Source of the DNA: a virus
Virus record (IMG/VR): IMGVR_UViG_3300048017_000042
Coordinates: 1 to 20,633 of that record
Length of the DNA: 20,633 bases
Reading direction: 5' to 3' (one strand)
Below the pieces are notes generated by a model. That model saw only the letters and a program-made list of their open reading frames with translations. It did no database searches and had not been told where the DNA came from. Both the position numbers and the translations under genes were made by a program. This document shows, piece by piece, positions 3,948-12,412 of this stretch (position 1 is the stretch's first letter; every line of letters starts with the position of its first letter).

Positions 3948-4025
3948 TCCCTGTTAGCTTAGTCAGGTCTAAAGCACTGGTCTTTGAAATCAGTATCGTT
4001 GGTTCGAATCCAACACGGGGTGCCA
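3948..4025 (+). tRNA. tRNA-Gln(UUG)
   Basis: The anticodon loop is CTTTGAA on stem CTGGT/ATCAG. The T arm is GTTGG-TTCGAAT-CCAAC. The acceptor is TCCCTGT/ACGGGGT, with the first pair unpaired (T-T), then G and CCA. It is the first tRNA after promoter 1. Its CCA is also the first three bases of a long hairpin. Confidence 0.88.
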
Positions 4026-4131
4026 TATAAAAACATACTGTGAGGCGCTAGTTGCATGGCGAATCCGAACAGAATGCAACCCACCATGTAATATTGTACA
4101 TAAAGATGGTGAGCAGTGTGTTTTTATATGG
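4023..4131 (+). ncRNA. Long-hairpin RNA, member 1 (CCAT...ATGG family)
   Basis: CCATATAAAAACATACTG (4023-4040) pairs over 18 bp, with one G-U, with 4114-4131. Inside are two further hairpins: GTTGCAT/ATGCAAC and CACCAT/ATGGTG, the latter enclosing TGTA/TACA. The result is a three-way junction. The 5' arm begins with the CCA of tRNA-Gln, and the 3' arm ends 10 bases before tRNA-Ser. Three relatives occur at 5900, 9707 and 12440. It may be a duplex cut by RNase III to free the flanking tRNAs, or a stable RNA in its own right. Confidence 0.6.
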
Positions 4132-5827: not shown

Positions 5828-5902
5828 GCTCCTGTCGTCTACTGGCTAGGACGCTGCCCTTTCAAGGCGGAAAAGACGGATCGAAACCGTTCAGGAGTAC
5901 CA
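5828..5902 (+). tRNA. tRNA-Glu(UUC)
   Basis: The acceptor is GCTCCTG/CAGGAGT, then A and CCA. The anticodon loop is CTTTCAA on CTGCC/GGCGG. It is the first tRNA after promoter 2. Its CCA starts the second long hairpin. The T loop begins ATCGAAA rather than TTCRA. Confidence 0.88.
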
Positions 5903-5992
5903 TATTAAAACATACTGAGCCTGGGAGTCGTACTCCGGGTCGTTTCAGATAACAATAGCCGCAAGGATAATTGGCAGTATGTTTCAATATGG
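5900..5992 (+). ncRNA. Long-hairpin RNA, member 2
   Basis: CCATATTAAAACATACTG (5900-5917) pairs with 5975-5992 over 18 positions, with one A-C mismatch. Inside are a strong hairpin (CCTGG.../...CCGGG, loop CGT) and a GCC/GGC helix. As in member 1, the arm begins at the CCA of the upstream tRNA and ends just before the next tRNA. Confidence 0.6.
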
Positions 5993-6569: not shown

Positions 6570-6631
6570 AGAATCCATTCAGCAAGCAATTTAAATTTCA
6601 CTGTTAATGAAACTAAAAGCGGATTCTGTTG
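6570..6631 (+). ncRNA. Y-RNA-like element A (small, Asn-type hairpin)
   Basis: The stem is AGAATCC (6570-6576) with GGATTCT (6621-6627), 7 perfect pairs. The 5' internal-loop motif is ATTCAGCAA, the 3' strand is CTAAAAGC and the tail is GTTG. The only inner helix is TTTCA-CTGTTAA-TGAAA, identical in form to an Asn GUU anticodon arm. It lies between tRNA-Ile and tRNA-Tyr. See the entries at 7130, 7551, 10020, 10583, 10731 and 10834 for relatives. I infer a Ro60-binding Y RNA. Confidence 0.65.
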
Positions 6632-7129: not shown

Positions 7130-7196
7130 AGGATGAGTTCTGCAAATATAATTAGCTAAACTTTTTGGTTGTCTAGCGACAAAAATCATCCTGTTG
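7130..7196 (+). ncRNA. Y-RNA-like element B
   Basis: The stem is AGGATGA (7130-7136) with TCATCCT (7186-7192), 7 pairs. The 5' motif is GTTCTGCAA, the 3' strand is GACAAAAA and the tail is GTTG. The inner hairpin has GCTA/TAGC outside AAC/GTT. The stem sequence differs from elements A and C at several positions while pairing is kept. It lies between tRNA-Pro and tRNA-Asn. Confidence 0.6.
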
Positions 7197-7550: not shown

Positions 7551-7615
7551 AGAATAGGTTCAGCAAACCAAAAAGCATTCAACTTGTAATTGAAAAAGCA
7601 AAAACTATTCTGTTG
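7551..7615 (+). ncRNA. Y-RNA-like element C (Thr-type hairpin)
   Basis: The stem is AGAATAG (7551-7557) with CTATTCT (7605-7611). The 5' motif is GTTCAGCAA, the 3' strand is AAAGCAAAAA and the tail is GTTG. The inner hairpin TTCAA-CTTGTAA-TTGAA has exactly the form of a Thr UGU anticodon arm (5 bp, 7-base loop). It begins seven bases after a CDS stop and ends eight bases before a tRNA. Confidence 0.65.
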
Positions 7616-9633: not shown

Positions 9634-9709
9634 GCGTCTTTAGCTGATGTGGTCATAGCGGAGGCCTGAAGAGCCTTGGAAGTTGGTTCGATTCCAACAG
9701 GACGCACCA
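9634..9709 (+). tRNA. tRNA-Phe(GAA)
   Basis: The acceptor is GCGTCTT/AGGACGC, then A and CCA. The anticodon arm is GAGGC-CTGAAGA-GCCTT. The T arm is GTTGG-TTCGATT-CCAAC. Its CCA starts the third long hairpin. Confidence 0.92.
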
Positions 9710-9809
9710 TATAGAAATACATTGATCGGTAAGTAGCAGTGCCGCTGGTGCTACAGGAAAACGTGGGTTCGAATCCCACAACCAGGTTCTTTAGTGTGTT
9801 TCTATATGG
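9707..9809 (+). ncRNA. Long-hairpin RNA, member 3, with an internal T arm
   Basis: CCATATAGAAATACATT (9707-9723) pairs with AGTGTGTTTCTATATGG (9793-9809), about 17 bp with G-U pairs. Inside are GTAGCA/TGCTAC and a canonical T arm GTGGG-TTCGAAT-CCCAC, so the enclosed part is tRNA-like although no anticodon arm is clear. The 3' arm overlaps the first bases of tRNA-Lys(CUU). The conserved ATCGG just inside the stem is shared with member 4. Confidence 0.6.
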
Positions 9810-9887: not shown

Positions 9888-10014
9888 GGAGATGTGATGT
9901 AATGGTAGCATAGCATAGCAAAAAGTCAATCCTGATAAGGATTGTTTCCGCAACACTATCGCTTTAACTCTGTAAAAGTTCTTGTCCGCGGTTCGAATCC
10001 CGGCATCTCCACCA
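9888..10014 (+). ncRNA. Interrupted tRNA-like gene carrying the Y-RNA motif (element D)
   Basis: The ends are a tRNA: acceptor GGAGATG/CATCTCC, A and CCA, a D-like arm ATG/CAT, and a T arm CCGCGG-TTCGAAT-CCCGG with one bulged C. Near the T arm, AACT-CTGTAAA-AGTT resembles a Tyr GUA anticodon arm. Between the D arm and this hairpin are about 50 extra bases: TAGCAAAAAGT, a stem CAATCC-TGATAA-GGATTG, then TTTCCGCAAC. These are the 3' and 5' halves of the Y-RNA-like core in swapped order, with the common stem closed by a loop. The insertion has no group I intron core. It may be a non-permuted Y-like RNA or an intron-like insertion. Confidence 0.6.
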
Positions 10015-10019
10015 AATTT

Positions 10020-10121
10020 AGAATAGTTACAGCAAAAATAACTGTACGCGAATGGATCGCAATTTGACTTCTAATCAAACCTTGGGGGTTCAATTCCCTC
10101 TACAAAACAACTATTCTGTTA
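10020..10121 (+). ncRNA. Y-RNA-like element E enclosing a tRNA-Arg(UCU)-like cloverleaf
   Basis: The outer stem is AGAATAG (10020-10026) with CTATTCT (10111-10117). The 5' motif is TTACAGCAA, the 3' strand is AAAACAA and the tail is GTTA. Inside is a near-complete tRNA form: TGTA/TACA as a short acceptor, D arm GCG-AATGGAT-CGC, anticodon arm TTTGA-CTTCTAA-TCAAA and T arm GGGGG-TTCAATT-CCCTC. No CCA is present. It shows that these elements carry tRNA modules on a common stem. Confidence 0.65.
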
Positions 10122-10377: not shown

Positions 10378-10542
10378 ATGAAATCACCAGTATTTGGAGC
10401 ACGTGCAGGTAATGTAAAGTGCAGAGGTAAGAAGACCAAGATGATGTCCTGTTATTGTTGTGAAATGATTAACAGCAAATGGTCTGAACGTTGGAAAGAA
10501 GCCAAGAAAGAAATTTCTGGTATTAATGAAGAAAAGCATTGA
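10378..10542 (+). CDS. Small Cys-containing basic protein, unknown (54 aa)
   Basis: A 54-residue frame rich in Lys and Arg, with Cys at 15, 25, 27 and 28 (C-Y-C-C) and a helical tail (W-S-E-R-W-K-E-A-K-K-E-I). The Cys pattern could bind a metal. It starts one base after the CCA of tRNA-Arg(CCU), and the GGAG of that tRNA lies seven bases before the ATG. Its TGA stop overlaps the -35 box of the promoter for the Ro60/Y-RNA unit. No family recognised. Its place next to the Ro60 unit makes it a candidate partner. Confidence 0.6.
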   Translation: MKSPVFGARAGNVKCRGKKTKMMSCYCCEMINSKWSERWKEAKKEISGINEEKH

Positions 10543-10567
10543 CAAATTACACTTAACTTTGTATAAT
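10539..10567 (+). promoter_or_regulatory. Near-perfect sigma70 promoter for the Y-RNA/Ro60 unit
   Basis: TTGACA (10539-10544), a 17-base spacer and TATAAT (10562-10567). The predicted start at about 10574 is only some nine bases before the stem of element F. Most of the spacer is the reverse complement of the GTTAAGTGTAATT block found in the second island leader. Confidence 0.88.
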
Positions 10568-10582
10568 TGATAAAAGGATCTT

Positions 10583-10716
10583 AGGATAGGTTCAGCAACC
10601 AAGCAACTAACGGGTTAAACCGTAACGAACGTTTATAGATATCTCGAAAGAGACTCGTTAAACAACATGAGTTTCGATTTCTCATGCAAATCAAAAAGTA
10701 GGAAACTATCCTGTTG
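10583..10716 (+). ncRNA. Y-RNA-like element F, the first RNA after the promoter
   Basis: The stem is AGGATAG (10583-10589) with CTATCCT (10706-10712). The 5' motif is GTTCAGCAA, the 3' strand is AGTAGGAAA and the tail is GTTG. Three inner hairpins follow in tRNA order: ACGG-GTTAAA-CCGT; a longer one with AACG/CGTT and a TCTC-GAAA-GAGA tip; and CATGAG-TTTCGATTT-CTCATG, whose loop contains TTCGATT like a T loop. The whole is cloverleaf-shaped. Transcription should begin just in front of it. Confidence 0.65.
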
Positions 10717-10730
10717 TATTTAAAAGTTTT

Positions 10731-10828
10731 AGAGTAGGTTCAGCAAAACAAAAATTCGTAGGTTCGACTCCTATATTACGCACCAAAACTCGCGTGATCG
10801 CCATGGTGGCAATCAAACTACTCTGTTA
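10731..10828 (+). ncRNA. Y-RNA-like element G: circularly permuted tRNA with internal CCA
   Basis: The outer stem is AGAGTAG (10731-10737) with CTACTCT (10818-10824). The 5' motif is GTTCAGCAA, the 3' strand is AATCAAA and the tail is GTTA. Inside, the tRNA parts are in swapped order: T arm GTAGG-TTCGACT-CCTAT, acceptor 3' strand ATTACGC, ACCA, six spacer bases, acceptor 5' strand GCGTGAT (7 pairs with ATTACGC) and D arm GCC-ATGGT-GGC. Cleavage at RNase P and CCA positions would leave two pieces held by two helices. This is the clearest permuted tRNA in the window. Confidence 0.75.
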
Positions 10829-10833
10829 TTTTT

Positions 10834-10955
10834 AGGTTAAGTTCCGCAACATTTAATGCTGTCATAACTGTACAAGTCATGGTTCGATTCCATGATCTCC
10901 AATTGGAGATTGGTCTAATGGTAGGACAGTACTTAGCAAAAAGTTTAACCTGTTG
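10834..10955 (+). ncRNA. Y-RNA-like element H: permuted tRNA mimic next to the Ro60 gene
   Basis: The outer stem is AGGTTAA (10834-10840) with TTAACCT (10945-10951). The 5' motif is GTTCCGCAAC, the 3' strand is TAGCAAAAAGT and the tail is GTTG. The order inside is T arm CATGG-TTCGATT-CCATG, then ATCTCC-AATT-GGAGAT (the acceptor stem sealed by a four-base loop), then D arm GTCT-AATGGTA-GGAC. A sealed acceptor with the ends at the other side is how I recall the tRNA-mimic module of the bacterial Y RNA YrlA. It ends 17 bases before the Ro60-like start codon. Confidence 0.75.
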
Positions 10956-10972
10956 ATTTGAAAGGAAATATT

Positions 10973-12412
10973 ATGTCAACATTTGTAGAAGCCGTAGTAA
11001 ATCAAGAAGCCCGTACCACTAACGGTATGAAGGCACGTAAGTCCACAGCAAACGCTGTTGTAGATTTGTTCTACAATGCAGGTGCTTCACGTGGCAAAAA
11101 TATTATCCCAGCATTCACTGCTGCCTTTGTCGAAAACAAAGAGTTGGCATTGCGTGTAGCCGCATGGCTGCGTGATGCGCGTGGTGGTGCAGGTGAACGT
11201 CAATTGTTCCGTGACATTCTTGTTCACTTGGAAAATACTGATCCAGAATCTGCAAAGGCTCTGTTGAAGAAAGTTCCTGAACTTGGTCGTTGGGATGACT
11301 TGTTCGTCTTTAAGACTAAAGCACTGAAGACTGAAGCATACGACATGTTGGGTGACGCCCTTCGTGCGAAGAATGGTCTTGCTGCAAAGTGGACTCCTCG
11401 CCAAGGTCCAATCGCCGCTGAGATTCGTACTCACTTCGGTATGTCTCCTAAGTTCTACCGTAAGTCTTTGGTTGAAATGACCAAAGTGGTTGAAACTCAG
11501 ATGTGTGCAAAAGAATGGGCTGAGATTAACTTCTCACATGTTCCTTCTGTTGCATCCGCACGATACAAGATGGCTTTCAATCGTAACACTCCAACATATG
11601 CACAATATGTTGCTGAGTTGATGAAAGATCCAAAAGATCGTACAATGGATGTTAAGGTTAACGCTGGCGCAGTGTTCCCATATGATGTACTGAAAGGTCG
11701 CATTGGTTCATACCGTCAATCGTTCTCCAAGACTGAATTGGACTTGATCCAAAAGCAATGGGAGGCTCTGCCTAACTTTGTTGGTGATGCTAACGTGTTG
11801 CCATTGGTCGACACTTCTGGTTCTATGACTTGCCCAGCAGGTGGTTATGACTCTAAGAGTGGTTTGACTTGTATGGATGTTGCAGTCTCTCTGGGATTGT
11901 ACATGGCAGATAAGAACAAAGGTAAGTTTAAAGATACCTTCTTGACCTTCTCTGCACAACCACGTTTGATCAACTTGAAGGGTAACATCAACGAGAAGAT
12001 CAATCAGATGTGTACTGGTGAAGTTGCTAATACCAACTTGCACGCCGCATTCAAGAAGATCCTTGAAGTTGCAAAACAAAACAGTGTTCCACAGTCAGAA
12101 ATGCCTGAAACATTGGTGATTTTCTCTGATATGCAGTTTGATGCATGTGTTGCAGGTCGTGATGCTTCGGCAATCGAAATGATCACACATGAATACACCA
12201 AAGCAGGTTACGAACTTCCAAAGGTCGTATTCTGGAACTTGAATGCTTCATATGGCAATGCGCCTGTGAAGTTTGACAAGAGTGGTGTTGCGTTGGTTTC
12301 TGGATTCTCTCCAGCCGTGGTTAAGCCATTGCTTGCTGGTGATTTGGAAACTTTCACACCAGAATCTGTGATGCTTATAACCATCATGGATGAACGCTAC
12401 GCTGTATTGTAA
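10973..12412 (+). CDS. Ro60-like RNA-binding protein (TROVE/DUF2828-type with vWA domain)
   Basis: A 479-residue protein. The N-terminal 270 residues are helical repeats with family blocks L-R-D-A-R-G-G-A-G-E-R (66-76), V-P-E-L-G-R-W-D-D-L (101-110), Y-R-K-S-L (162-166) and H-V-P-S-V-A-S-A-R-Y (189-198). The C-terminal half is a von Willebrand A domain with a full MIDAS: D-T-S-G-S (280-284), T354 and F-S-D (D386). This is the Ro60 architecture: a ring that binds ends of misfolded RNA inside and Y RNA outside. The ATG at 10973 has AAAGGA upstream; an in-frame TTG at 10958 is less likely. Three Y-RNA-like elements precede it on the same transcript, and a terminator follows. It could protect, check or degrade phage or host tRNAs. 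DUF2828 rather than classical TROVE may be the closest family. Confidence 0.85.
   Translation: MSTFVEAVVNQEARTTNGMKARKSTANAVVDLFYNAGASRGKNIIPAFTAAFVENKELALRVAAWLRDARGGAGERQLFRDILVHLENTDPESAKALLKKVPELGRWDDLFVFKTKALKTEAYDMLGDALRAKNGLAAKWTPRQGPIAAEIRTHFGMSPKFYRKSLVEMTKVVETQMCAKEWAEINFSHVPSVASARYKMAFNRNTPTYAQYVAELMKDPKDRTMDVKVNAGAVFPYDVLKGRIGSYRQSFSKTELDLIQKQWEALPNFVGDANVLPLVDTSGSMTCPAGGYDSKSGLTCMDVAVSLGLYMADKNKGKFKDTFLTFSAQPRLINLKGNINEKINQMCTGEVANTNLHAAFKKILEVAKQNSVPQSEMPETLVIFSDMQFDACVAGRDASAIEMITHEYTKAGYELPKVVFWNLNASYGNAPVKFDKSGVALVSGFSPAVVKPLLAGDLETFTPESVMLITIMDERYAVL

Follow-up and report, generated by a model that had tools for sequence, protein, structure and literature searches.

What does a virus do with a Ro60-like protein whose gene lies within a tRNA island, directly behind a row of small structured RNAs? 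This arrangement is found in the 20,633-nt virus DNA IMGVR_UViG_3300048017_000042 (the window, to which all coordinates refer unless stated otherwise). A preliminary description of the window proposed a phage-encoded Ro60-Y RNA operon, consisting of one consensus promoter, three consecutive structured RNAs (F, G and H) and a Ro60-like protein with a complete vWA metal ion-dependent adhesion site (MIDAS). Each of these parts is borne out by the present analysis, and the core reading, a Ro60-like protein together with RNAs that join a presumed Ro60-binding stem to a tRNA mimic, is supported by the predicted fold, covariation, synteny and an association test. The limits of the proposed operon were drawn too narrowly, as RNAs of the same kind occur across the tRNA island. 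The unit itself is made up as follows.

10539 to 10567, plus strand: sigma-70-type promoter TTGACA-17-TATAAT, recognized by pattern only, 12 of 12 consensus positions; it precedes F, G, H and the gene.
10583 to 10712, plus strand: handle RNA F, stem AGGATAG/CTATCCT, with the motif GTTCAGCAA; fold z −4.2.
10731 to 10824, plus strand: handle RNA G, stem AGAGTAG/CTACTCT; fold z −3.0.
10834 to 10951, plus strand: handle RNA H, stem AGGTTAA/TTAACCT; fold z −1.4 alone, backed by comparison with relatives.
10973 to 12412, plus strand: gene of the Ro60-like protein (479 amino acids), with ATG at 10973; the list of open reading frames alternatively begins at TTG 10958.

The link of the protein to Ro60 rests on its fold, because sequence searches alone could not show it. 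Pfam recognized DUF2828 (4.9e-19) and DUF7788 (1.8e-43), VWA_2 only below threshold, and no TROVE domain. In PHROGs the protein falls into phrog_850, annotated as "RNA-binding protein" (3.9e-135). There was no match by phmmer against solved structures, none in PADLOC or NCBIfam, and a profile search reached TROVE entries at an E value of 0.011 only. The AlphaFold2 model built from 53 aligned sequences (pLDDT 89.2, pTM 0.88) consists of a helical ring and a vWA domain. When it was compared with the PDB by Foldseek, the top five matches were all Ro60/TROVE structures (Ro60 1yvr, E 1e-9; Rsr 2nvo, 2e-8), and the first structure in VIA-align was Ro60 with RNA (1yvp_A, Z 21.6, 412 residues, 3.9 Å), compared with Z of about 11 for unrelated vWA proteins. 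The MIDAS residues D280-x-S282-x-S284, T354 and D386 are invariant across the 53 relatives. According to the model, the protein has a Ro60 fold with a conserved MIDAS, so the concern that it might lie outside the Ro60/TROVE fold does not apply; its membership in the Ro60/TROVE group holds for fold and MIDAS but does not extend to a Pfam TROVE match. Relatives are encoded in 681 public phage records, every one below 60% identity, and mycobacteriophage records label theirs "Ro-like RNA binding protein". DUF2828 and DUF7788 (window 10973-12412) appear to be Ro60-fold families, and their non-phage members may be unrecognized Ro60 proteins.

F, G and H share one plan, which we call the handle: a 7-nt 5' strand that opens with AG, three more nucleotides, C[ACT]GCAA, a payload, a 3' strand complementary to the 5' strand and ending in CT, and a G. 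The same plan recurs in the window at 6570, 7130 and 7551. We looked for it in 81 close loci, that is, 80 viral contigs with a near relative of the protein and the window, with the reversed sequences as control. The closed 7-bp handle was matched about 200 times, always on the gene strand, and never in the reversed sequences, so that its recurrence is above chance. In the 39 sequences of the class whose payload is an anticodon arm, every cell of the handle stem is paired (100%) and pair types swap on both sides at five of the seven positions, while the anticodon-arm stem is 96% paired, with a covariation of 0.716 versus 0.167 after shuffling. In G, the handle, the T arm and the acceptor stem all covary when compared with relatives. 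A pseudoknot of CAGCAA with GUUG after the stem was rejected by reasoning, as a 3-nt loop would have to span both helices. The search with bacterial Y RNA covariance models, which the preliminary description had recommended, went against its naming of the RNAs: for the window and five loci, Rfam gave no YrlA or Y RNA match for any handle RNA, only tRNA and weak chance matches. At the level of sequence, the handle is its own motif, distinct from the Rfam Y RNA models.

The handle and the protein go together across phages. In a gene-blind pattern scan, viral contigs were sorted by whether a closed handle was present, and phrog_850 was found in 30 of 43 records with the handle versus 3 of 35 without. 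Among contigs of at least 40 kb the numbers were 15 of 15 and 3 of 12 (one-sided Fisher test, about 5e-5 by hand calculation). In contrast, of 19 large contigs with a second, unrelated RNA family of tRNA islands, 6 carry phrog_850. R1, a covariance model built on the anticodon-arm class, matched 18 of 18 tested phrog_850 contigs of IMG/VR and none of three controls, with copies in Vibrio phage nt-1, Citrobacter phage Ci1, Stenotrophomonas phage DLP6, Synechococcus phage BUCT-ZZ01 and Listeria phage AG20. The strict handle pattern misses many copies in distant loci; relaxed rules and the covariance model recover more. Under the relaxed rule, 14 loci (the window and cultured phages) have about 31 handles on the gene strand, one on the opposite strand and two in the reversed control. 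Handles adjoin the gene in Listeria, FelixO1, Aeromonas, Campylobacter, Staphylococcus, Enterococcus, Stenotrophomonas and Synechococcus phages, and the pairing with phrog_850, nearly always on the gene strand, spans phages of Proteobacteria, Firmicutes, Campylobacter and cyanobacteria. The stable RNAs C and D of phage T4 were considered as relatives and rejected, since T4 has neither phrog_850 nor a match to R1. T4 rnaC (locus L372, 1109-1247) does have a T-arm-like hairpin (CCGGGTTCGAATCCCGG).

What the handles carry differs from RNA to RNA, and parts of tRNAs are seen again and again. The best hairpin of the small payloads has a 7-nt loop in 101 of 232 distinct sequences (5.7 after shuffling), and these 101 loops have C32 in 74, U33 in 88, A37 in 93 and A38 in 87, with positions 34-36 variable. 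Judged by these positions, they are anticodon loops with a variable triplet. Within one linker class the triplet changes from contig to contig (GUU, GUA, GUC, GAA, GCA, GGA and others). A T arm is present in 137 of 225 larger payloads (3.9 after shuffling); our anticodon-arm caller scored T loops of large payloads as CGA, and those counts were discarded. One larger class is an acceptor-less tRNA, mostly with a UCU anticodon, which is 97% paired and has 44 double changes versus 11.7. The elbow class consists of a T arm, a closed acceptor stem and a D-arm-like hairpin, as in G, a permuted, anticodon-less elbow whose acceptor stem is closed by an ACCA-containing loop. In the permuted-tRNA class, to which H belongs, a module of T arm, closed acceptor and D arm is joined to the handle at the anticodon-loop position. 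Both the G-type elbow and a pseudoknot-like payload recur in Stenotrophomonas phage DLP6.

The preliminary description saw in all three RNAs exactly the two-part form of bacterial Y RNAs. In YrlA, a permuted tRNA-like module sits on the base stem that Ro60 binds, and the G and H classes share this layout, whereas the anticodon-arm class and F do not. The F payload is a complex larger fold with a T-arm-like hairpin. F-type payloads (window 10583-10712; L004 7568-7732; L020 3173-3323) have a conserved stretch resembling CAAAAAGTAGGAAA at their end, and a GGAGC...GGCTTTGAAGG hairpin, for which Rfam gave no match, is common to several F relatives.

Beyond F, G and H, the window has four more handle RNAs and one tRNA-like gene that bears a handle.

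6570 to 6627, plus strand: handle RNA with the isolated anticodon arm TTTCA-CTGTTAA-TGAAA (GUU), by handle pattern and comparison.
7130 to 7192, plus strand: handle RNA with a pseudoknot-like payload (GCTA:TAGC with TTGTC:GACAA), paired by eye from co-varying relatives (L003, L065, L367).
7551 to 7611, plus strand: handle RNA with the isolated anticodon arm TTCAA-CTTGTAA-TTGAA (UGU), by handle pattern and comparison.
9888 to 10014, plus strand: tRNA-like gene with an inserted handle, CAATCCT-GATA-AGGATTG at 9927-9944, then TTTCCGCAA.
10020 to 10117, plus strand: handle RNA, acceptor-less mimic of tRNA-Arg(UCU), stem AGAATAG/CTATTCT; fold z −3.6.

The payload at 10020-10117 comprises a D arm, the anticodon arm TTTGA-CTTCTAA-TCAAA and a T arm, and its handle follows the plan with one change. 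In the tRNA-like gene at 9888-10014 the handle sits between the D arm and the anticodon arm, the same arrangement as in phage Ci1 (L203, 11026-11043), and handles at this junction of tRNA-like genes are also present in BUCT-ZZ01 and APT65. Intron-split tRNA and tmRNA were rejected as identities because the order of the payload parts is wrong for them and the scores are weak; the tmRNA model scored 17.2 bits on 9888-10014 versus a gathering score of 47, and ARAGORN found no tmRNA. The handle RNAs also lack what a functional tRNA has, a full cloverleaf with an acceptor stem and a free 3' CCA: the anticodon-arm and acceptor-less RNAs have no acceptor stem, and that of G is closed by a loop.

Several parts of this system have precedents. 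Phage Ro60 proteins are already known from mycobacteriophages, Thermus phage phiLo (9l5y), jumbo phages (PMC7824862) and pir03 (PMC7765460), and candidate phage Y RNAs had also been put forward. The Ro60 of phiLo (PDB 9kop and 9l5y), titled a TROVE-domain protein, is likewise a phage-encoded Ro60 fold and was compared by protein fold alone (Z 16.9 and 15.5 to our model). For Listeria phage CKA15, purified virions yielded 20 peptides of the homologue CKA15_055 (57% coverage), and transcription of the phage is highest in three unannotated regions immediately upstream of its gene, which the authors suggested to be Y RNAs (PMC12282133). CKA15_055 is the same kind of Ro60-like protein (Rsr by HHpred) with abundant unannotated RNAs upstream, but the motif, structure and payload of those RNAs were not defined in that study (PMC12282133). 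In the related Listeria phage AG20 the phrog_850 gene is immediately preceded by three handle RNAs, and by analogy the abundant CKA15 transcripts probably include handle RNAs. Upstream of the Ro60-like gene AG20 also has two promoter-led, handle-free noncoding stretches (L255, 2006-2320 and 2426-3000), which may correspond to some of the highly transcribed CKA15 regions. Compared with Ro60/Rsr and YrlA, the phage system is alike in the Ro60 fold with its vWA MIDAS and in the position of the gene beside small RNAs; it is unlike them in the absence of Pfam TROVE and Rfam YrlA/Y RNA matches, in its different handle motif, and in having many RNAs per genome with swapped payloads. Most of these payloads, such as isolated anticodon arms and acceptor-less tRNAs, are of kinds that YrlA is not known to carry. 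We found no earlier description of the handle, of its link to DUF2828/phrog_850 or of anticodon-arm arrays in the literature searched, which covered few subscription papers, and the shared handle and the anticodon-arm arrays appear to be new.

The main question then is what such a ribonucleoprotein (RNP) would do. Our preferred explanation, to which we give an even chance, is that a Ro60-like RNP presents tRNA decoys to host nucleases that cut tRNAs. The protein would probably hold the common handle by its 7-bp stem and CAGCAA internal loop, in the way that the base stem of a Y RNA is bound by Ro60. Each handle RNA would then display another tRNA piece, be it an isolated anticodon arm, an acceptor-less body, an anticodon-less elbow or a permuted tRNA. 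Host nucleases and other defence factors that attack tRNAs would bind the displayed part and stay occupied, and the protected decoys would spare intact phage and host tRNAs. We favor decoys over a single tether because many different tRNA pieces share one presumed protein-binding stem. Wolin and colleagues suggested that the tRNA-like domain of YrlA could competitively inhibit an anticodon nuclease (PMC7790460). The commonest payload triplets, UGU, UUU and GUU in a tally dominated by one clade, are main targets of AriB of PARIS, which depletes tRNA Lys(UUU), Thr(UGU), Asn(GUU) and Thr(CGU) (PMC12409363). Phage tRNAs are known to resist or replace cut host tRNAs (PMC10264068, PMC11555353, PMC12409363); these lie in tRNA islands of the same type and have the same likely enemies, but are complete and used in translation, for which the handle RNAs lack the necessary parts.

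Several observations weigh against decoys. AriB requires contacts outside the anticodon arm (PMC12409363) and may therefore fail to stay bound to an isolated arm. Close relatives bias the anticodon tally, and when arms are counted by distinct sequence GGA leads. F-type, pseudoknot-class and very long payloads are not recognizable as tRNA parts. The mycobacteriophage checked, Crossroads, has no handle detectable even by the relaxed rules, the handles of GAP32 and XbC2 lie in a tRNA cluster about 200 kb away from the gene, and one 68-kb contig, which may be a fragment, has a handle and no phrog_850. The extra contacts of AriB, the one-clade tally and an alternative explanation of the triplets by a bias to A36 or U36 (below) are the reasons why we do not rate decoys higher. 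A wider proposal, that large phages of many hosts use a general RNA counter-defence in which the Ro60-like protein baits immune nucleases with swappable tRNA parts of evolving anticodons, possibly preloaded in the virion and active from the first minutes, we regard as conceivable and somewhat short of even.

Whatever its action, the protein of hundreds of phage genomes (the 681 records), until now "hypothetical" or "RNA-binding", acquires a definable RNA partner family, and it is evident that a Ro60-type system can be built of modules, a single stem bearing many different tRNA parts. If the RNAs are decoys, viruses would have, in addition to resistant tRNAs and RNA repair, one more way to evade immunity that targets tRNAs, and the purpose of bacterial and viral Ro60 and Y RNAs would become directly testable, since the variable triplets of the anticodons point to the host factors that are bound.

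The best of the other explanations, although an unlikely one, is the classic work of a Y RNA: the RNP would tether an exonuclease (PNPase, for instance) of the host or the phage, or serve RNA quality control, with the tRNA-like modules as gates or tethers as in YrlA. The Ro60 fold, the permuted tRNA-mimic layout of H and G and the Rsr-Y RNA-PNPase precedent of D. radiodurans (cited in PMC12282133 and PMC7790460) are consistent with this; the isolated anticodon arms of variable triplet and the acceptor-less UCU tRNAs are left unexplained, and Rfam YrlA did not match. The arms could instead be sponges or substrates for tRNA-modifying enzymes (t6A37, ms2i6A37), altering host translation or giving modified decoys. 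Hypermodified A37 is found in the tRNA classes with A36 or U36. One of these two bases is present in 28 of 31 distinct small-payload arms, versus about 60% of the tRNAs in the same loci, and A37 is near invariant in the arms. This bias rests on related sequences, however, and sponges would not account for acceptor-less and elbow payloads, so we consider the explanation improbable. Control of translation, by displayed arms entering ribosomal decoding sites or by the RNP acting on translating ribosomes, would suit the canonical U33 and A37 but is quite improbable, as elbow-only and pseudoknot payloads have no decoding part. An RNA repair platform, on which the RNP would hold broken or spare tRNA parts for ligation, would fit the RNA ligase that GAP32 and XbC2 encode beside the gene, the tRNA splicing ligase encoded close by in Listeria AG20 and a jumbo-phage survey that ties ROT/TROVE proteins to RNA repair (PMC7824862). 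Among 17 large contigs related to the window, though, RtcB is absent and a T4-type RNA ligase occurs once; we rejected repair genes as constant partners, being nearly absent in the relatives of the window, and a repair platform is very improbable.

The position of the handles relative to the gene raises one more question. Of the 73 close loci, 64 have a handle whose 3' end lies under 60 nt upstream of the start codon, most commonly by 22-24 nt (the 3' end of H is 21 nt ahead of the ATG); among distant leaders the count is 13 of 63, versus 1.7% at random positions. This position suggests autoregulation of the gene, in which the protein may set its own level. That the handles are merely processing or leader elements, for tRNA array maturation or autoregulation, with payloads made tRNA-like by recombination in the island, would agree with these distances but is hardly credible, given that compensatory changes keep the payload arms paired and the same payload types recur in distant phages.

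The tRNA island contains a second modular RNA family, the unrelated one mentioned above, directly 3' of tRNA CCA ends (window 4025-4129, 5902-5990 and 9709-9807; alignment A7). Its base stem, ATATAAAAACAYA / TGTGTTTTTATAT, shows compensatory changes, and its payloads, 36-186 nt long, are hypervariable. The family was matched 83 times in the 81 loci versus once in the reversed control, and is present in many phages without phrog_850. Between 2486 and 12796 the window has 30 tRNAs (ARAGORN) interleaved with small genes, among which are two metallophosphoesterases, a PD-(D/E)XK protein, an RNaseH-like protein and a Cpn10-like protein.
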